Origin: Clostridia bacterium
GTDB lineage: Bacteria; Bacillota; Clostridia; Oscillospirales; CAG-272
Length of the DNA: 48,945 nucleotides
Direction of reading: 5' to 3'
NCBI GenBank assembly: GCA_017646745.1
Contig: JAGCLY010000085.1
Location: 1-48,945, forward strand
Shown: piece after piece, positions 5,445 to 47,002 of the stretch
Numbering within the stretch: the stretch's first letter is position 1
How the letters are laid out: every line of letters begins with the position of its first letter
Program-made: the position numbers and the translations under genes
The notes under the pieces: model-generated
Told to the model about the DNA's origin: nothing
The model's database searches: none
Seen by the model: only the letters and a program-made list of their open reading frames with translations

Positions 5445-5450
5445 AAAACA

Positions 5451-5477
5451 AAAGGACAGAGAATTTCTCTGTCCTTT
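5451..5477. terminator. Bidirectional terminator between convergent operons
   Basis: AAAGGACAGAGA (5451-5462) pairs perfectly with TCTCTGTCCTTT (5466-5477) around a three-base loop, with U-rich flanks on both strands. It ends the lipoprotein/ABC unit (plus) and the indolepyruvate oxidoreductase operon (minus). Confidence 0.85.
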
Positions 5478-5490
5478 TATTCGTCTGATA

Positions 5491-5916
5491 TTAGTGCAGC
5501 TTGCTTTCGTCAAGCAGCTCGATGCCGTTTTCTATAAGGATTTTGTCGGTTTCTTCGGTGTTGCCGGTACGCATTACCGAGTATGCCTTGCCCTCCTCGG
5601 AGGTTATAAGAGCATACATGTAGTCGATATTAACACCGTGACCCTCCAGCAGACTTAATACCTTTGCTAGTCCACCTGGCTGATCGGGAACTGCAAACGC
5701 ATTTACAAGTCGTACGTTTGCCGCATGGCCATCCTTGTCAAGCAGCTCCTTTGCCTTATCGGGGTCGTTTGCAATTATACGCACAATTCCGTAGTTAGAG
5801 GTGTCTGCCACGCACATAGAGCGCAGGTCTATATTTGCTTTTGCCAGGGCATCAGTTATATCGTGAAGCGAGCCCTGCTTGTTTTCTACGAATACAGATA
5901 ACTGTTTGATTGCCAT
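5491..5916 (-). CDS. Tandem ACT-domain protein
   Basis: A 141-residue protein made of two ACT modules: one starts at IKQLSVFVENKQGSLHDI, the second near residue 70 at VNAFAVPDQPGGLAKVL. The Gly in the turn before the first helix of each module (QGS, PGG) is the usual amino acid contact. Stand-alone tandem ACT proteins bind amino acids and act as allosteric regulators. It is the last gene of the operon, 13 bases after the phenylacetate-CoA ligase gene, a pairing commonly seen in anaerobes. A plausible role is sensing phenylalanine or another aromatic amino acid and modulating the ligase or oxidoreductase; this is inference. Confidence 0.85.
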   Translation of the reverse strand: MAIKQLSVFVENKQGSLHDITDALAKANIDLRSMCVADTSNYGIVRIIANDPDKAKELLDKDGHAANVRLVNAFAVPDQPGGLAKVLSLLEGHGVNIDYMYALITSEEGKAYSVMRTGNTEETDKILIENGIELLDESKLH

Positions 5917-5929
5917 AGTTTAGTCCTCC

Positions 5930-7279
5930 TTAGTCGTGTAGATTACGCTCGTCGACAACTCGCTTTGCCTTGCCCTCGCTTCTTGCGATGGTCTTTGGGG
6001 GCACGAGATGAACGGCGGGACCGATACCTATCATATTACGCATAGCATTTGCCAGTGACTTTTCCATAGCCGTGATATTCTTTACCGAGTCGTCAAACTG
6101 CTCGGGCTTCAGCTCTACGTATACGTCGAAGGTATCGCTGTTGTTTACTCTGCCCAGCTTGATCTGATAGTTTTCGGAGAAGCCCTCGGCCAGCAGAACA
6201 GCCTCGATTTGCGAGGGAAATACGTTAACGCCGCGAATGATCATCATATCGTCGCTTCTGCCCATAGGCTTTGCCATACGAACGTGGGTTCGACCGCAGG
6301 AGCAGGGCTCACGGTTGAGAACGCATATATCTCGTGTTCTGTATCTCAGAACGGGGAAGGCCTCCTTGTCAAGACAGGTGAATACCAGCTCACCCTTAGC
6401 TCCCTCGGGCAGGGGCTCTCCGGTTTCGGGGTTGATGATTTCAGCCAGGAAGTGATCCTCGTTTATATGCATACCGCCCTGTGCTGAGCATTCAAAGGCA
6501 ACTCCGGGGCCACTGATTTCGGTAAGTCCGTATATATCATACGCCTTGATGCCCAGAGTCTGCTCGATATTTCTGCGCATCTCCTGTGTCCAGGGCTCTG
6601 CGCCAAAGATGCCCGCCTTCAGCGGAATCTGATCGGGGGTGTATCCCTGTTCCTTAAGGCTCTCGCCGAGATATGCGGCATAAGAGGGGGTACAGCAGAG
6701 CACTGTCGCCTGCATATCCATCATAAACTGCAGCTGACGCTCGGTGTTACCCGAGGACATAGGCAGGGTAAGGCAGCCAACCTTATGCGATCCGCCGTTA
6801 AGTCCGGGGCCTCCGGTGAACAGCCCGTAGCCGTAGCTTACCTGTACAACGTCCTCTCTGTCTGCTCCTACCGCCACCAGCGCTCTTGCACAGCACTCCT
6901 CCCACAGATCTATGTCATGCTGGGTGTAGTATGCTATAACTCTTTTGCCGGTTGTACCCGAGGTGGACTGTATTCTTACGCAATCTGCCAGCGGTACCGC
7001 CAGCATACCGTTAGGATATGATTCTCTGAGGTCGCTCTTTTCGATAAAGGGCAGCTTGTACAGATCCTCAATGCCATGAATATCCTCGGGTTTAACACCC
7101 TTTTTGTCCATCAGATCACGGTAGTAGGGAACGTTGTTGTATACGTGCGCCACCTGCTTTACCAGCTTCTCGGACTGCAGCTTTTTTATTTCCTCAACGG
7201 GCATTGTTTCTATTGCCTCGTTGAAATATTTTCTATTTCCCATAAAATTAACTTTCTTGAACGGTTTATTTTCTTCCAA
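5930..7279 (-). CDS. paaK: Phenylacetate-CoA ligase family protein
   Basis: A 449-residue adenylate-forming enzyme of the PaaK family. It activates an aryl acid (phenylacetate, indoleacetate or similar) to its CoA thioester using ATP. Seen in sequence: the P-loop IQSTSGTTGKRV near residue 105, YGLTEISGPGVAFEC near 250, RYRTRDICVLNREPCSCGRTH near 315, and the C-terminal lid beginning IIRGVNVFPSQIE. The CXCGRTH stretch is characteristic of PaaK. The gene overlaps the end of iorB by 14 bases and lies between iorB and the ACT gene. In this context it links arylacetyl-CoA to free arylacetate. Length is slightly above the usual 430 or so. Confidence 0.93.
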   Translation of the reverse strand: MEENKPFKKVNFMGNRKYFNEAIETMPVEEIKKLQSEKLVKQVAHVYNNVPYYRDLMDKKGVKPEDIHGIEDLYKLPFIEKSDLRESYPNGMLAVPLADCVRIQSTSGTTGKRVIAYYTQHDIDLWEECCARALVAVGADREDVVQVSYGYGLFTGGPGLNGGSHKVGCLTLPMSSGNTERQLQFMMDMQATVLCCTPSYAAYLGESLKEQGYTPDQIPLKAGIFGAEPWTQEMRRNIEQTLGIKAYDIYGLTEISGPGVAFECSAQGGMHINEDHFLAEIINPETGEPLPEGAKGELVFTCLDKEAFPVLRYRTRDICVLNREPCSCGRTHVRMAKPMGRSDDMMIIRGVNVFPSQIEAVLLAEGFSENYQIKLGRVNNSDTFDVYVELKPEQFDDSVKNITAMEKSLANAMRNMIGIGPAVHLVPPKTIARSEGKAKRVVDERNLHD

Positions 7280-7835
7280 GGGTGAATGCCTTGATATTCA
7301 TCTGGGTGAATTTGGGAGCAACGCTCTTTTTGATAGCATCAATCCACTTTTCCTCGGGGATAGACATATACTTTGACAGTCGTCCCATCAGAACCATGTT
7401 TACCGCCTTTACCGAGCCTGCCTCCTTTGCAAGAGCAAGGGCGTCAATAGCGTCAACGTTGGATAAGCTGTCCTGAAGTCTATCAATAATATCAACAGGA
7501 TATTCTGCCGCACCGGTGATTACGGGCATGGGATCTATCTGCTGGGTATTAACGATAAATCTGCCTCCCTGCGCAAGGTTAGGAACGTACCTTGCCGCCT
7601 CCAGACCCTCAAACGCAACTATAAAATCTGCCTCGCATCTGTCGATGATGGGTGAATAAACCCTCTCGCCGAACTTAACGTACGTAACAACGCTTCCGCC
7701 ACGCTGGCTCATGCCATGCACCTCGGATACCTTTACGTCATATCCCTGATCAAGGAGCAGATTGCCCAGCAGCTTACTTGCCAACAGCGATCCCTGACCG
7801 CCTACTCCAACGATCATAATATTGGTGGTTTTCAT
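7266..7835 (-). CDS. iorB: Indolepyruvate oxidoreductase subunit beta
   Basis: A 189-residue gamma-domain subunit of the 2-oxoacid:ferredoxin oxidoreductase superfamily. It opens with IMIVGVGGQGSLLASKLL, followed by VSEVHGMSQRGGSVVTYVKFG, both diagnostic of IorB. It partners IorA in the reversible, CoA- and ferredoxin-dependent interconversion of arylpyruvates and arylacetyl-CoA plus CO2. Its start codon overlaps the iorA stop (TAATG), implying coupled translation and equimolar subunits. It is also overlapped by the start of paaK. Confidence 0.94.
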   Translation of the reverse strand: MKTTNIMIVGVGGQGSLLASKLLGNLLLDQGYDVKVSEVHGMSQRGGSVVTYVKFGERVYSPIIDRCEADFIVAFEGLEAARYVPNLAQGGRFIVNTQQIDPMPVITGAAEYPVDIIDRLQDSLSNVDAIDALALAKEAGSVKAVNMVLMGRLSKYMSIPEEKWIDAIKKSVAPKFTQMNIKAFTLGRK

Positions 7836-9565
7836 TATTTTGCACCTCCAATAGCGTCAAATGCACACAACTGTTTACATACATCGCATCCAACGCAGAG
7901 CGTTTCATCAATTTTTGCCTTTTCGCCCTTCATGCTTATGGCGGGACAACCGATCCTCATACACGCCTTGCAGCTGCGGCACTTGTCATTATCCACCGTA
8001 AGAGGGGCTCCCAGCTTTACGCTTTTCAGCAGTGCACAGGGGCGGCGGGATATGATTACCGATGGCTCGTCAGCTGCGATCTCCTCCATGATAACAGCCT
8101 CGGTGGTCTTAAGATCGTATGGATCAACTACCTTTACACGGTTAATGCCCAGGGCATGGCAGAGTGTCTCAAGATCGATCTTTGTCGCAGGATCGCCCTT
8201 GATATTATATCCGGTAGTAGGATTATGCTGATGTCCGGTCATACCGGTTATAGAGTTGTCAACAATGATTACGGTAGAATTTGTGCCATTGTAGGCGATG
8301 TTTGCAAGTCCGGTCATGCCCGAATGCATAAAGGTGGAGTCGCCAATTACGGCAACAGTCCTGCCTTCGCTTTCCTTGCCACGTGCCTTGTTAAAGCCGT
8401 GAACGCCCGAAACCGATGCACCCATGCAGAGCACAGAGTCAATGGCATTCAGCGGTGCGGCCGAGCCTAGGGTGTAGCATCCGATGTCGCCCAGCACGGT
8501 GATCTTTTTCTTTGCCAATGCATAGAACAGACCTCTGTGGGGACATCCTGCGCACATAACAGGGGGGCGTACAGGCAATTTTTCTGCCTCAGTATAGTTG
8601 CTTACATCGAGGCCCATTGCCTCTGCAATCATTCTCTGACTGAACTCGCCGCAGATGGGGAGTATATTCTTGCCCTCTACCTTAAGGCCGAGGCTCTTAC
8701 AGTAATTTTCAATATAAGGATCAAGCTCCTCAATAACCACCAGGCGTCCTGCCTTGCTTGCAAAGTCGAGTATAAGCTGCTCGGGCAGGGGATTTACCAT
8801 GCCCAGCTTGAGTATGGAAACACTGTCACCGAGGATCTCCTTAACGTACTGATAGCAGGTTCCCGAGGTGATAATTCCAAGCTCGCTGTCAGCATATTCG
8901 GCTCTGTTTACAGAGCAGGTGTTTGCATATTCACTAAGCTTTGCCTGTCTTTGTTCAACAATGGGGTGCTTTGTAATAGCATTTGCAGGTGCCATTATGT
9001 ATTTTTTAGGATTTTTTTCGTATTCCTTAAGAGGCATATTCTCTCTGTCACACAGCTCTACGGTGCTCTGTGAGTGTGCAATTCTGGTGCACATACGAAG
9101 CAGAACGGGGGTATCGTATTCCTCGGAAAGCTCGAATGCCAGTTTTGTAAACTCCTTTGCCTCGGCAGAGTCGGCGGGCTCCAGCATAGGCAGCTTTGCC
9201 GCCTCGGCATAATGGCGAGAGTCCTGCTCGTTCTGCGAAGAATGCATTCCGGGGTCATCTGCCACGCAGATTACAAGACCGCCGTTTACACCGGTGTAGG
9301 ACATGGTAAAGAGTGGGTCTGCCGCCACGTTAAGGCCCACGTGCTTCATACAGCATGCCGACCTTGCGCCGGCAAGAGATGCGCCAAAGGCAACCTCCAG
9401 ACCAACCTTTTCGTTAGGCGCCCATTCGCAGTACATTTCATCGTATTTAGCGGCGTATTCGGTTATTTCGGTAGAGGGAGTGCCGGGATAGCTGGATACT
9501 ATTTTGCATCCCGCCTCATACATGCCTCTGGCAACCGCCTCGTTTCCAAGCATTAGTTTTTTCAT
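7835..9565 (-). CDS. iorA: Indolepyruvate oxidoreductase subunit alpha
   Basis: A 576-residue catalytic subunit. The N-terminal third is the pyrimidine-binding part with SSYPGTPSTEI. The thiamine diphosphate site is clear in the middle: GDIGCYTLGSAAPLN, then AVIGDSTFMHSGMTGL, then IIVDNSITGMTGHQHNP. The C-terminus carries two ferredoxin-type Cys clusters (CRSCKACMRIGCP and CVGCDVCKQLC) for [4Fe-4S] centres. The enzyme oxidises indolepyruvate and phenylpyruvates to arylacetyl-CoA, or runs in reverse as a reductive carboxylation that makes arylpyruvates for amino acid synthesis. A GGAGA ribosome site precedes the ATG. The T-box upstream argues for the biosynthetic use. Confidence 0.95.
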   Translation of the reverse strand: MKKLMLGNEAVARGMYEAGCKIVSSYPGTPSTEITEYAAKYDEMYCEWAPNEKVGLEVAFGASLAGARSACCMKHVGLNVAADPLFTMSYTGVNGGLVICVADDPGMHSSQNEQDSRHYAEAAKLPMLEPADSAEAKEFTKLAFELSEEYDTPVLLRMCTRIAHSQSTVELCDRENMPLKEYEKNPKKYIMAPANAITKHPIVEQRQAKLSEYANTCSVNRAEYADSELGIITSGTCYQYVKEILGDSVSILKLGMVNPLPEQLILDFASKAGRLVVIEELDPYIENYCKSLGLKVEGKNILPICGEFSQRMIAEAMGLDVSNYTEAEKLPVRPPVMCAGCPHRGLFYALAKKKITVLGDIGCYTLGSAAPLNAIDSVLCMGASVSGVHGFNKARGKESEGRTVAVIGDSTFMHSGMTGLANIAYNGTNSTVIIVDNSITGMTGHQHNPTTGYNIKGDPATKIDLETLCHALGINRVKVVDPYDLKTTEAVIMEEIAADEPSVIISRRPCALLKSVKLGAPLTVDNDKCRSCKACMRIGCPAISMKGEKAKIDETLCVGCDVCKQLCAFDAIGGAK

Positions 9566-9593
9566 ATTATTCTCCGAAGTGTTTATCTGTATA

Positions 9594-11237
9594 TCAGCCC
9601 GAGATCTGCGCCTCTACCAGGCTTCCGCCACAGTATTTCTCGCGCAGTGCGGGCTTCTCGATCTTGCCTGTGGGATTTCTCGGCACGTCGGCAAAGATGA
9701 TTTTTCTCGGTCTCTTGTATTTCGGCAGGCCGAGGCAGAATTCGTTAACCTCATCCTCGCTGATGGTGCGGTCGCACTTTACCTCAATAATAGCCGCCGC
9801 TATTTCGCCAAGACGCTTGTCGGGCAGGCCGATTACAGCCACATCCTTTATACATTCGTGTCCTCTCAGATGGTCCTCTATCTGCACGGGGTAGATATTC
9901 TCGCCGCCGCTGATAATAACGTCCTTCTTTCGGTCAACGAGGTAGATAAATCCGTCCTCGTCCTCCTTGGCCATATCGCCTGTCATAAGCCAGCCGTCCT
10001 TGAGTATCTCGGCTGTGGCGTCGGGATTTTTATAATAGCACCTCATTACGCCGTTGCCCTTTACCGCCAGCTCGCCTACCTGACCGTTTGCTACAGGCTT
10101 ACCGTTTTCGTCTACAATAGCCGTCTGCCAGCCGTAACCCGCCTTGCCGATTGCGCCAACCTTATGCAGATTCTCTGTGCCGAGGTGAACGCATCCGGGG
10201 CCGATAGACTCGGACAGGCCGTAGTTGGTGTCATACTCGTGATCCGGGAAGCGGCCCTTCCACCTCTTAATAAGAGAGGGAGGCACAGGCTGTGCGCCAA
10301 CGTGCATAAGTCGCCATTGATCAAGATTGTGCTCGCTAAGATCAATTTCACCACGGTCTATTGCATCAAGAATATCCTGTGCCCAGGGCACCAGTAGCCA
10401 TACGATGGTAGCCTTTTCGTCCGACACGGTTTGCAGAACCCACTCGGGGCTTACACCTCGCAGCAGCACTGCGCGTCCGCCTACAACCAGCGAGCCGAAC
10501 CAATGCATCTTCGCTCCGGTGTGATACAGGGGAGGGATACATAAAAATACGTCATTTTTAGTCTGTCTGTGGTGATGCTGTTCGGTATAGCATGCGCATA
10601 CAAGAGCTCTGTGACTGTGCAAAATTGCCTTAGGGAAGCCTGTTGTGCCCGACGAGAAGTATATTGCCGCATTGTCGTCGTCGCAGATCTCTACCGGCGG
10701 AACGGTGGACGAGCAATAATACACCATCTCGGCATAATTGTCGGCGTAATCGGGTGTTTCGCACTGCTTGCCTACGAAGAAGAGGTTGTCTATCATGGGT
10801 AGGGTTCCCTGAAGCGAGGAAATTCGCTCTATAAACTCAGGGCCAAATACAAGCATTCTTACGTCAGCCAGATCAAGACAGTATCTGATCTCGTCTGCCG
10901 AATAGCGGTAGTTCATGGGAACTACTATTGCGCCTGTTTTCAGTATTCCAAAGTATATTGGCAACCACTCAAGGCAGTTCATCAGCAGCACGGCAACCTT
11001 GTCGCCCTTCTTAATACCTCTGGTGAAGAGCAGGTTGGCAAATCTATTGGCCTTGATGTCAAAATCGCGCCAGCTGATCTCTCTGCGATACTTGTCCGAG
11101 TCAGCCGCCGTTTCTATAAGGTTGTATTCTCGCCATGTTATATCCTTGTCCGGCTGACGCTCGGGGTTGATTTCAACCAGCGCCGTGTCGTTGGGATATA
11201 TTTTGGCGTTTCTTTCAAGAAAATCTGTGATAGGCAT
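9594..11237 (-). CDS. Acyl-CoA synthetase (AMP-forming), first gene of the T-box operon
   Basis: A 547-residue class I adenylate-forming ligase. Visible motifs are the P-loop YFSSGTTGFPKAI near residue 195, YGLSESIGPG near 340, the WLMTGDMAKEDEDGFIYL hinge region, DRKKDVIISGGENIYP, and the C-terminal catalytic lysine in NPTGKIEK. It resembles fatty-acyl or medium-chain/aryl acid CoA ligases more than PaaK, so the operon encodes two different CoA ligases. The substrate may be an arylpropionate, arylacetate or a branched or short acid; the sequence alone does not decide. The ATG at 11237 has a strong AGGAG site directly after the T-box terminator. Confidence 0.9.
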   Translation of the reverse strand: MPITDFLERNAKIYPNDTALVEINPERQPDKDITWREYNLIETAADSDKYRREISWRDFDIKANRFANLLFTRGIKKGDKVAVLLMNCLEWLPIYFGILKTGAIVVPMNYRYSADEIRYCLDLADVRMLVFGPEFIERISSLQGTLPMIDNLFFVGKQCETPDYADNYAEMVYYCSSTVPPVEICDDDNAAIYFSSGTTGFPKAILHSHRALVCACYTEQHHHRQTKNDVFLCIPPLYHTGAKMHWFGSLVVGGRAVLLRGVSPEWVLQTVSDEKATIVWLLVPWAQDILDAIDRGEIDLSEHNLDQWRLMHVGAQPVPPSLIKRWKGRFPDHEYDTNYGLSESIGPGCVHLGTENLHKVGAIGKAGYGWQTAIVDENGKPVANGQVGELAVKGNGVMRCYYKNPDATAEILKDGWLMTGDMAKEDEDGFIYLVDRKKDVIISGGENIYPVQIEDHLRGHECIKDVAVIGLPDKRLGEIAAAIIEVKCDRTISEDEVNEFCLGLPKYKRPRKIIFADVPRNPTGKIEKPALREKYCGGSLVEAQISG

Positions 11238-11253
11238 CGCTATACTCCTTGCT

Positions 11254-11553
11254 AAAAAAACGAAATCCCTGCGTTCGGTAGAACGCAGGGACGTAAAAAC
11301 AAATTACGTGATACCACTCTGCTTCACCCACTCCTCACGAAGAGGGCCTTATAGGGTGCCAACACACCCCGTGCGATATAACGGTCGCACCCGGTATCGC
11401 CTACGCACACAGCCTTTGTGCTGTCCTTCAGTGAACGGCTAACGAAGTGAATTCACACGGCAAGGATCTCCGTCTTGCACCAAACGACGGCTCTCTGCTC
11501 ACCCTTTATCCATGATACTATTCTTCGGTCAAACACCTTTAAAATAAAAATAT
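11254..11553 (-). promoter_or_regulatory. T-box leader, probable Phe (UUC) specificity
   Basis: On the minus strand this leader has the T-box parts in order. A Stem I region carries an AGAGAG bulge and an apical GGTGCAA. A specifier region reads GTGTGAA-TTC-A, with TTC at 11449-11451. The antiterminator T-box GAGTGGTATCACG lies in 11307-11319, and the UGGU within it would pair with an acceptor end carrying discriminator A. A perfect 11-bp terminator stem (11266-11276 with 11281-11291) is followed by seven U. Uncharged tRNA should prevent termination and switch on the ligase-iorAB-paaK-ACT operon. UUC as the specifier is my reading from position and flanking bases. This leader and its promoter fill the spacer between 11238 and 11602. 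Confidence 0.9.
11266..11291 (-). terminator. Regulated terminator of the Phe-type T-box
   Basis: Perfect stem TCCCTGCGTTC/GAACGCAGGGA with a four-base loop, followed on the minus strand by ATTTCG and seven U (11254-11260). Confidence 0.9.
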
Positions 11554-11559
11554 ACAATT

Positions 11560-11588
11560 ATTTTAGCAGAAATGACGAAATTTGTCAA
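11560..11588 (-). promoter_or_regulatory. Promoter of the T-box/ior operon
   Basis: Minus strand TTGACA (11583-11588), 17-base spacer, TAAAAT (11560-11565). It lies directly after the stop of the AIM24-family gene and immediately upstream of the T-box leader. Confidence 0.85.
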
Positions 11589-44093: not shown

Positions 44094-46721
44094 TCAGTTA
44101 AGCTTCGCGAGAGCAATGGAAAGCGACTCTCTTACTTCAAGATACTTTCTCAGCTTAGCCTTCTCGCCCTCAATAACGGCCGCAGGAGCCTTGGCTACAA
44201 AGCCCTCGTTTGCGAGCTTCTTCTCAATTCGCTCGATCTCGCCGTCGTTCTTCTTCATCTCGGCGGTAAGACGTGCGCGCTCCTTCTCAAAGTCGATAAC
44301 CTCTGCAAGAGGAATGTAAAGTCGACCTGCATCGGTTGCAATCATAACCGCATCGTCAGACTCATAGCTGTCGGTAAGGATAACCTCGGATGCGCTTGCA
44401 AGCTTCTCAAGAATCTTCGCTGCTCTCTCGAAGGTGTCTTCGTACTTTGTAACAACAAAGAGCTTTGCCTTCTTCGAGGGGGGAACGTTCATCTCGGCCC
44501 TGCGTGTTCTGATAGCGGTAATGCATGCGATGATTCTCTCTACGTCCTCCTCGGCGGAGCTGTAATCCAGCTTCTCATCGTACTGAGGATAAGCAGAGAT
44601 CATAATAGACTCGCAGGTATGGGGGATAGCCTGGTAGATCTCCTCGGTGATGAAGGGCATATAGGGATGAAGCAGACCGAGAATGCCGGAGAGAACCTTA
44701 ACGAGTGTTCTCTTTGCAGTAAGTGCAGGTGCGCCACCCTCGAAGATACGGCTCTTCGCCATCTCAATATACCAGTCGCAGAAGGTGTCCCAGGTGAAGG
44801 AGTAGATCTCAGCCAGAGCAACTCCAACCTCGTAGTTAGCGATATTGTCGTTTACACTCTTTGCCAGAGCGTTGAACTTGGAGAGGATCCACTTGTCCTC
44901 GATGGTAAGCTCGTCCTCGCTTGCAGCCGCAAGAAGCTCCTCGTCGCTCTCGGTCAGGTTCATAAGCACGAATCTGGATGCATTCCAGAGCTTGTTGGCA
45001 AAGTTTCTCGCCGCCTCGATCTTCTCGTCGGAAAATCTCATATCGTTACCGGGAGCGTTACCGGTTGCAAGAGCAAATCTGAGCGCGTCTGCGCCGTATT
45101 CCTCGATAACCTTAAGGGGATCGATGCCGTTGCCAAGCGACTTGGACATCTTGCGTCCCTGTGCGTCACGTACAAGACCGTGAATAAATACGGTAGAGAA
45201 GGGCTTCTCGTCCATATGCTCAAGACCGGAGAATATCATTCTGGATACCCAGAAGGTGATGATGTCATAGCCGGTAACAAGAGTGTCTGTGGGATAGTAT
45301 CTCTTGAGATCCTCGGTTTTGTCGGGCCAGCCAAGAGTAGAGAAGGGCCAAAGAGCAGAGGAGAACCAGGTGTCAAGAACGTCCTCCTCCTGTCTTACTG
45401 CGCCGCCACACTTGGGGCAGGCGGTAATATCGGTCTTGGAAACCTCCATATGACCGCACTCGTCGCAGTAGAAGGCGGGAATTCTGTGTCCCCACCAGAG
45501 CTGACGGGAGATACACCAGTCAAGGATGTTGTTCATCCAGTTAAAGTAGTTCTTAGAGAATCTCTCAGGAACGAAGTTGATAGAACCGTTCTGTACAGCC
45601 TCGATTGCGGGAGCCGCAAGGGGCTTCATCTTAACGAACCACTGATCGGAGGTAAGGGGCTCAACGGTAGTGCTACAGCGGTAGCAGGTACCAACGTTGT
45701 GATCGTGGGGCTCTGCCTTAACGAGATAGCCCTCTGCCTCAAGATCGGCAACAAGTGCCTTACGGCAGGTATATCTGTCCATGCCCTCATACTTACCTGC
45801 GTATGCGTTCATGGTAGCATCGTCGTTCATAACCTTGATCTGCTCCAGATTGTGGCGCTGACCAACAAGGAAGTCGTTGGGGTCGTGTGCGGGAGTGATC
45901 TTAACACAGCCGGTACCGAAGCCGATCTCAACGTAGTCATCTGCAATTACGGGGATCTCACGGCCAACGATGGGCAGTATAAGGGTCTTGCCGATAAGAT
46001 GCTTAGTATTTTCGTCCTCGGGGTTAACTGCAACCGCAGTATCACCGAACATTGTCTCGGGACGGGTGGTAGCTATCTCAACGTAGCCGTCCTCACCCTT
46101 GATGGGATATTTAATGTGCCAGAAGAAGCCGGGCTGATCCTTGTACTCAACCTCTGCGTCGGAGAGGGCGGTAAGGCATCTGGGGCACCAGTTGATAATT
46201 CTGTGACCTCTGTAAATAAGGCCCTTGTTGTAAAGGTTTACGAACACCTCTCTTACTGCTCTGGAGCAGCCCTCGTCCATAGTGAATCTCTGTCTGGACC
46301 AGTCGCAGGAGGCACCAAGCTTCTTAAGCTGACCGGTGATTCTCTCCTCATAGGAATCCTTCCACGCCCATACACGCTCAAGGAACTTCTCACGGCCGAG
46401 ATCGTATCTGGACAGACCCTCGTCTACACGAAGTCTTTCCTCAACCTTGATCTGTGTCGCAATACCTGCGTGGTCGGTGCCGGGTACCCAAAGAGTAGAG
46501 TAGCCCTGCATTCTCTTGGTACGAACAAGTATGTCCTGCAGGGTCTCGTCAAGCGCGTGACCCATGTGCAGCTGACCGGTTACGTTAGGCGGAGGGATAA
46601 CGATAGAGAAGGCAGGCTTCTTGTCGTCCTCATCGGGCTTGAAATAGCCCTTCTCACACCATTCACCGTATATCCTGTCCTCAAACTCGGCAGGATTGTA
46701 GTTTTTTGCAAGTTCTTTCAT
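44094..46721 (-). CDS. valS: Valyl-tRNA synthetase
   Basis: An 875-residue class I synthetase. The HIGH-like signature is in [25 protein letters not shown] is in [14 protein letters not shown], and the editing domain lies between them (about residues 190-330, [20 protein letters not shown]). A zinc-ribbon-like segment [20 protein letters not shown] is present near residue 430. The C-terminal coiled coil (from about 805) ends AKLN. GAAAGGACGA precedes the ATG. A T-box leader upstream makes expression responsive to uncharged tRNA-Val. Confidence 0.97.
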
Positions 46722-46750: not shown

Positions 46751-47002
46751 AAAAAAGCCCTAAGCAGAAATAAATCTGCTCAGGGCGAAAAAATCGCGGT
46801 ACCACCTGATTTTATGGATAAAAATCCACCTCATTACGCATATAACGGTGCTCACCGCCGAGTTCTAATAAGCATGTGTGCCGTTCTTCCCGGGATACTT
46901 TGGGCTACCTTCACGATTGCCGCTGTGAGCTTACACCAACCGCCCACTCTCTATAAGCCGACACTCTCGCTACTCCTCCCAAAGAGGATAAATCCTTGCA
47001 AT
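46751..47002 (-). promoter_or_regulatory. T-box leader of valS
   Basis: On the minus strand: Stem I with an AGAGAG bulge and apical GGTGTAA, a specifier region GTGAAG-GTA-GCC in which GTA (Val, 46906-46908) is the fitting codon, the canonical T-box AGGTGGTACCGCG (46795-46807), and a terminator GCCCTGAGCAG/CTGCTTAGGGC followed by six U. UGGU in the T-box suits discriminator A of tRNA-Val. With its promoter and the divergent kduI promoter this fills the spacer 46722-47173. Confidence 0.93.
46757..46786 (-). terminator. Regulated terminator of the valS T-box
   Basis: An 11-bp stem with one mismatch (46757-46767 with 46776-46786), followed on the minus strand by six U (46751-46756). Confidence 0.88.

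Follow-up and report, generated by a model that had tools for sequence, protein, structure and literature searches.

A phenylalanine T-box precedes an indolepyruvate oxidoreductase and predicted arylacetate-CoA ligase operon in a Clostridia bacterium and points to a probable arylacetate salvage route

We analyzed contig JAGCLY010000085.1 of a gut Clostridia bacterium (assembly GCA_017646745.1; GTDB lineage Oscillospirales; CAG-272), a stretch of 48,945 nucleotides that is called here, at its full length, the window. In it, a T-box leader of phenylalanine (Phe) type lies ahead of an operon for indolepyruvate oxidoreductase (IOR, encoded by iorA and iorB) and two acyl-CoA ligases. T-boxes let transcription through when their cognate tRNA is uncharged. 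The operon comprises five minus-strand genes with small or no spacing between them, and its features, from the promoter-like site to the operon end, are as follows.

11560-11588, minus strand: promoter-like site TTGACA-17-TAAAAT, 11 of 12 consensus positions (consensus only), 18 bases upstream of the T-box match
11284-11542, minus strand: T-box leader, RF00230 match over model positions 1-219 of 219, 70.6 bits
11435-11538, minus strand: stem I with AGUA motif and distal AGAGA/GGUG elements (RF00230 alignment; covariation over 13 leaders)
11449-11451, minus strand: specifier UUC (Phe), in GAA-UUC-A beside the basal helix CGAAG/CUUCG
11282-11322, minus strand: antiterminator with the T-box bulge UGGU at 11316-11313 (predicted fold)
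11255-11292, minus strand: intrinsic terminator that excludes the antiterminator, a 12-pair hairpin plus U run
9594-11237, minus strand: ACS-type AMP-forming acyl-CoA ligase, a predicted arylacetate-CoA ligase (PF00501, 248 bits) and the first gene behind the T-box
7835-9565, minus strand: iorA (TIGR03336, 722.5 bits, cut-off 650.9), with two cysteine clusters
7266-7835, minus strand: iorB (NF005325, 276.4, cut-off 230)
5930-7279 (start codon uncertain), minus strand: paaK-like phenylacetate-CoA ligase (PF00501 and PF14535; best NCBIfam model, TIGR02155)
5491-5916, minus strand: tandem-ACT-domain protein (PF19571 ACT_8, 101 bits)
5446-5482, minus strand: terminator-like hairpin at the operon end (hairpin prediction)

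A preliminary description of this DNA, made from its letters, had placed a complete T-box with TTC at the specifier position upstream of an acyl-CoA ligase, iorA, iorB, paaK and a tandem ACT gene. Both the leader and the gene order were borne out, with one change of name: the paaK product scored below the TIGR02155 equivalog cut-off (511.8 versus 646.3) and is hence called PaaK-like, its best solved relative being the phenylacetate-CoA ligase 4r1l (E value, 3.6e-122). The ACS-type ligase passed no NCBIfam equivalog cut-off, and the iorB product scored 190.4 against the TIGR03334 IOR_beta model, below its cut-off of 205.8. Both ligases are AMP-forming (PF00501), that is, of the acid-activating kind, and ligases of this kind favor acyl-CoA formation.

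The RF00230 match of the leader had E values of 2.1e-15 in the stretch and 1.8e-15 in the whole genome. Its score lies below the Rfam gathering score of 93, so a default Rfam scan of the window omits it. Since the basal helix sets the register, the specifier loop reads GAA-UUC-A, which gives an aromatic codon, as the preliminary description required, and the cognate tRNA-Phe, with anticodon GAA, is encoded on contig 72; the bulge UGGU is complementary to the ACCA of this tRNA, whose acceptor end is GGC-A-CCA with discriminator A73. The terminator hairpin (−21.8 kcal/mol) was more stable than any of 200 shuffles, and the antiterminator (−9.5 kcal/mol), which has its 5' arm in common with the terminator, was matched or surpassed by 6 of 200. 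In total, the promoter scan gave 10 sites versus 7.5 expected, so the site before the T-box carries weight only through its close match and its position. By itself, stem I folded no better than shuffles (z, −0.16); its helices covary over 13 related leaders, in an alignment that was guided by a model of these very leaders, with a score of 0.446 that none of 500 shuffles reached. One could take the leader for a chance T-box-like sequence, on the grounds that its score is under the gathering cut-off, and suppose that the arylacetyl-CoA from the ligases and IorAB goes into another product. Given the E value in the genome, the presence of all T-box elements and the recurrence of the same leader in the related locus L036 (genome G146) and elsewhere, with covariation, we consider this extremely improbable. 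A complete transcriptional Phe T-box is thus confirmed ahead of the ligase-iorA-iorB-paaK-ACT operon.

The genome contains five T-boxes by our scan. Apart from the ior leader, they precede ileS, valS, tyrS and thrS, with specifiers that we read as AUC, GUA, UAC and ACC, respectively (the thrS match is weak, at 28.3 bits). The valS T-box lies in the window and is the sole one that the standard scan reports there.

46778-46989, minus strand: second T-box of the window, specifier GUA, before valS (44094-46721), 104.6 bits

These four sit on synthetase genes, which leaves the ior operon as the one metabolic operon of the genome where the scan found a T-box; it found none on any transporter.

For comparison, we collected 80 ior loci from named genomes with IorA, mostly metagenome-assembled genomes (MAGs) of Clostridia from ruminants and other guts. 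A T-box stood directly before an ior-operon gene in 12 of them, with the specifier UUC in seven and UAC, for tyrosine (Tyr), in five. The gene behind it was ACS in eight loci (L036, L038, L053, L106, L108, L110, L112 and L113), iorA in two (L041 and L043) and paaK in two (L063 and L065). Matches to a specifier-blind T-box core pattern numbered 13 in 200 gene-start regions, where the density of the pattern in the loci predicts 2.3; 12 of the matches were the T-boxes already counted, and the remaining one (L047), which lies inside a TrpR-like gene where Rfam has no match, was rejected as chance. Further ior-operon T-boxes were found in four genomes of the family (UUC in G059; UAC in G130, G098 and G120). 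An aminotransferase gene adjoins the operon in L038, L053, L106, G130 and G064, and a DAHP synthase gene does so in L041 and L043/G002. In G080 and G017, T-boxes that we read by eye as UGG, for tryptophan (Trp), precede a second IorA paralogue, 41% identical, whose neighbors are IorB-like and PaaK-like (L191, 1225-1328; L192, 5389-5490). The bulge of the G080 leader is UGGC, as would fit tRNA-Trp, whose discriminator is G73; these leaders perhaps mark a conversion of indoleacetate to Trp.

On the IorA tree, a clustering of the T-box carriers was rejected, as the Phe and Tyr types each need 4 changes versus a mean of 4.2 for shuffled labels. With no lineage signal for the specifier in the tree, repeated T-box acquisition can be proposed only from the three leader positions. 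A core match in L054 was also discarded, being inside an antisense ligase gene, as were the T-boxes of L045, L055 and L062 as ior leaders, because another gene follows them and not the start of the ior operon. They score poorly (17.6 bits in L055 and 13.8 in L045; the L062 one is not among the model matches) and, at about 1700-2000, precede what we read as an isopropylmalate-synthase-like gene two genes upstream of iorA. Separately, a TrpR-related YerC/YecD gene lies in or beside 10 of the 80 loci, none of them with a T-box (L047, at 5639-5932, L048, L050, L051, L054, L056, L059, L061, L064 and L105), a hint of further end-product control at ior operons.

With a search model (R2) built from the 13 related leaders (an earlier one, R1, had 5 pairs only), we scanned 146 family genomes and 295 genomes of the order. 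For the 30 highest-ranking family genomes and the 23 highest-ranking ones from nine other families, we examined each genome's best T-box, taking as its target the nearest same-strand downstream gene within the query gene set. The targets of these 53 T-boxes were the SSS symporter (18), PaaK (11), ACS (10), a TrpX-like ABC transporter (9), DAHP synthase (2), IorA (1) and TyrRS (1), so that 40 of the 53 precede SSS, PaaK, ACS or IorA; the one with no query-set gene downstream heads pheS (TIGR00468, 237.2 bits, cut-off 237.45). DAHP synthase follows one UUC T-box directly, while another gene intervenes in L179 and L236, where DAHP synthase and tyrS lie 1.3 kb and 0.7 kb from the T-box, respectively. 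In another family, a Tyr T-box heads SSS-ACS-iorA-iorB-paaK (G391).

Since the training leaders of R2 carried UUC or UAC, the exclusively aromatic specifiers are in part a product of the model; the sorting of UUC versus UAC by gene is not. The SSS symporter had UAC in 18 of 18 cases and PaaK had UUC in 11 of 11, while ACS had UAC in 9 of 10 (two ACS readings being by eye), its single UUC case being the window. The ABC transporter had UUC six times and UAC three times, and UUC was also found before DAHP synthase (both cases), IorA and pheS, with UAC before tyrS (by eye). Specifiers were read by eye where the automatic reader failed or differed (L036, L108, L113, L174, L184 and L236); for L041, L063 and L065, it gave an additional, shifted Ser reading. 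Judged from the Tyr and Phe leaders of relatives, this sorting suggests that ACS and SSS may serve 4-hydroxyphenylacetate and that PaaK may serve phenylacetate.

IOR is reversible in principle, its reducing direction being known in methanogens, and the usual annotation of iorAB would make this a fermentation operon, in which Phe is transaminated and IorAB oxidizes phenylpyruvate to phenylacetyl-CoA, with the ligases reversed or acting on other acids and the T-box only tuning expression. With a Phe T-box, however, such an operon would start Phe breakdown during a shortage of Phe. The two ligases are AMP-forming, and the same class of T-box also precedes pheS, tyrS, DAHP synthase and aromatic transporters. 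We therefore judge fermentation to be quite improbable.

The source genome encodes chorismate synthase (AroC, PF01264). As to a complete pheA route, the chorismate pathway is present, but no match was found in the genome to prephenate dehydratase (PDT, PF00800), not even at E values up to 1, or, at an E value of 0.001, to prephenate dehydrogenase (TyrA, PF02153). The aro cluster on contig 78 (L142) reads aminotransferase, chorismate mutase (CM) domain fused in frame to AroB, AroC, AroE/K, AroQ, AroA and AroF, whereas in the sisters G146, G085, G150 and G010 the same order holds full CM-PDT and TyrA genes.

L142 9976-11280: chorismate mutase-AroB (3-dehydroquinate synthase) fusion, open in frame, the remnant after loss of the PDT and ACT domains

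The missing PDT domain and TyrA might be an assembly artefact, since the source genome (G000 in the family sample) is a metagenome bin of 1.70 Mb in 101 contigs with a completeness of 88.9%. Yet both losses fall within one contig with intact neighbors, CM runs into AroB in one open frame, no copy lies elsewhere in the genome, and CM without PDT occurs independently in G019 and G087, which makes an artefact unlikely. CM is kept without PDT and TyrA at L207 (G019) and L205 (G087); in L205, an SSS symporter, a tyrS-like gene, one further gene, AroB, AroA, AroC and CM follow one another on one strand. In G092, no TyrA was found, the aro contig ending there, and a Tyr T-box lies on SSS-ACS.

In the family sample, 13 of 146 genomes lacked PDT and TyrA but had AroC, with weak partial PDT matches (60-70 residues) scored as absent (G000, G018, G019, G029, G049, G058, G062, G064, G072, G082, G087, G126 and G131). 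True IorA was present in six (G000, G029, G049, G064, G087 and G131). In four of these (G000, G029, G049 and G064), ior, ACS or SSS genes carry an aromatic T-box. Indole-3-glycerol phosphate synthase (IGPS) was above the cut-off in none of the eight genomes searched (G000 and seven relatives), in which Trp synthesis seems to be absent.

By comparison with relatives, we consider it quite likely that the operon is a salvage route from arylacetates to Phe (and presumably Tyr), standing in for the lost PDT and TyrA. During Phe shortage, uncharged tRNA-Phe would let transcription pass the T-box and switch the operon on; the two AMP-forming ligases would activate scavenged phenylacetate, and presumably 4-hydroxyphenylacetate, to arylacetyl-CoA, which IorAB would carboxylate with reduced ferredoxin to arylpyruvates, and the aminotransferase beside the damaged aro cluster would convert these to Phe and presumably Tyr. 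The route would replace the two prephenate enzymes missing from an otherwise continuous aro cluster, and the operon would be one local version of a regulon under aromatic T-boxes that spans the order. The sequence itself shows the T-box, its specifier, the fit to the tRNA, the set of genes, the absence of the two enzymes and the recurrence in other genomes; the substrates, the direction of flux, the dependence on arylacetates and a sensing role of the ACT protein are what we infer from these data. The preliminary description had likewise proposed an anabolic operon with an aminotransferase encoded elsewhere. The first proposal gains support from the aromatic T-boxes on the same genes in other genomes, the restriction of the other T-boxes here to synthetase genes and the missing last steps of Phe and Tyr synthesis; the second agrees with the aminotransferase on contig 78, which in some relatives lies beside the ior operon.

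Several observations weigh against this salvage reading. In 56 of the 68 ior loci whose first recognized gene has more than 350 bases of DNA before it, no T-box was found, nor was there one in the close relatives L037 and L040 (L039 being too short upstream to judge), and the nearest T-box relative, G146 (L036), keeps both PDT and TyrA. A search for an SSS symporter in the source genome found none, which leaves uptake without explanation. The IOR of Bacteroides thetaiotaomicron, a point in favor of fermentation, was shown to take part in the conversion of Phe to phenylacetate (work cited in PMC13285125). To these are added the completeness of the genome, at 88.9%, and the training of R2 on UUC and UAC leaders. 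Finally, 6 of the 13 genomes without PDT and TyrA have no IorA at all, and a seventh (G062) has only the 41% paralogue, so that these losses were rejected as a marker of IOR users; because of the six, loss of PDT and TyrA is not tied to IOR. Salvage might be a supplement only, in a cell that mainly imports Phe and Tyr, the missing enzymes reflecting plain amino acid auxotrophy. The six genomes without IorA (G018, G019, G058, G072, G082 and G126, with no or weak PDT matches, no TyrA and AroC present), the coexistence of T-box and complete route in G146 and the IGPS result, which makes some aromatic amino acid import likely, all fit this alternative. Against it, the T-box lies on the ior operon, and none was found on a transporter in this genome; we regard it as possible but doubtful.

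The chemistry is already known from rumen bacteria and methanogens, and we found no description in the open literature of a T-box regulon on it. An anabolic IOR is reportedly indicated by iorA mutants of Methanococcus maripaludis, and Allison is said to have shown in the 1960s that rumen bacteria form Phe from phenylacetate. The proposed route shares with the methanogen pathway the sequence of arylacetate, arylacetyl-CoA, reductive carboxylation by IOR and transamination, and its gene set is encoded here, with ligase and IOR in the window and the aminotransferase on contig 78; it differs in being a bacterial operon with a T-box and in the Phe-, Tyr- and Trp-specific leaders. In Methanobacterium, IOR is proposed to run in reverse (PMC13285125). 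For Bacteroides, the same paper describes IOR with an AMP-forming arylacetate-CoA ligase, which was assayed, and a biosynthetic role was suggested from the AMP-forming kind; that suggestion rests on the ligase type alone, and the text does not mention a T-box. It also covers the oxidative Stickland Tyr pathway HpdDEFG/J/K of Clostridium scatologenes, which is alike in using a 2-oxoacid:ferredoxin oxidoreductase on arylpyruvates but has phosphotransacylase and kinase with ATP gain instead of AMP-forming ligases. Rumen cultures can make Phe from phenylacetate (PMC7356843), the same net reaction, and many of our ior loci come from ruminant gut MAGs, while the accessible part of that paper names neither genes nor regulator for the rumen route. 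T-boxes (RF00230) on amino acid biosynthesis and transport genes, including Phe and Tyr types and one-base specifier switching, have been described (Wels 2008, PMC2494555; TBDB, PMC7778990). The leaders here resemble these classical T-boxes in architecture, specifier logic, bulge for the tRNA 3' end and terminator/antiterminator, and differ in their targets, as the accessible parts of PMC2494555, PMC7778990 and PMC3766115 name no iorAB, arylacetate-CoA ligase or SSS symporter. No open-access paper that we found links T-boxes to IOR or phenylacetate, although an earlier mention in subscription papers is possible.

The customary reading of iorAB and paaK in gut genomes is that they produce phenylacetate, 4-hydroxyphenylacetate and indoleacetate, which act on the host. 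Should the operons instead use up arylacetates when aromatic amino acids run short, such predictions would have the wrong sign in lineages with these T-boxes: enzymes labelled as amino acid degrading would run backwards, rebuilding aromatic amino acids from the breakdown products of other microbes. This would provide candidate genes and a regulator for a decades-old rumen phenotype, the formation of Phe from phenylacetate; the leader specifiers would predict substrates for unnamed ligases and a symporter, and arylacetate cross-feeding between gut microbes would become directly testable. On balance, we lean slightly towards an order-wide T-box regulon of arylacetate salvage in gut Clostridia, with PaaK leading from phenylacetate to Phe, ACS and SSS from 4-hydroxyphenylacetate to Tyr and the second IorA set, under Trp T-boxes, from indoleacetate to Trp, which in the species studied here would have taken over from the final steps of Phe and Tyr synthesis, in a bacterium that may live on the fermentation waste of its neighbors.

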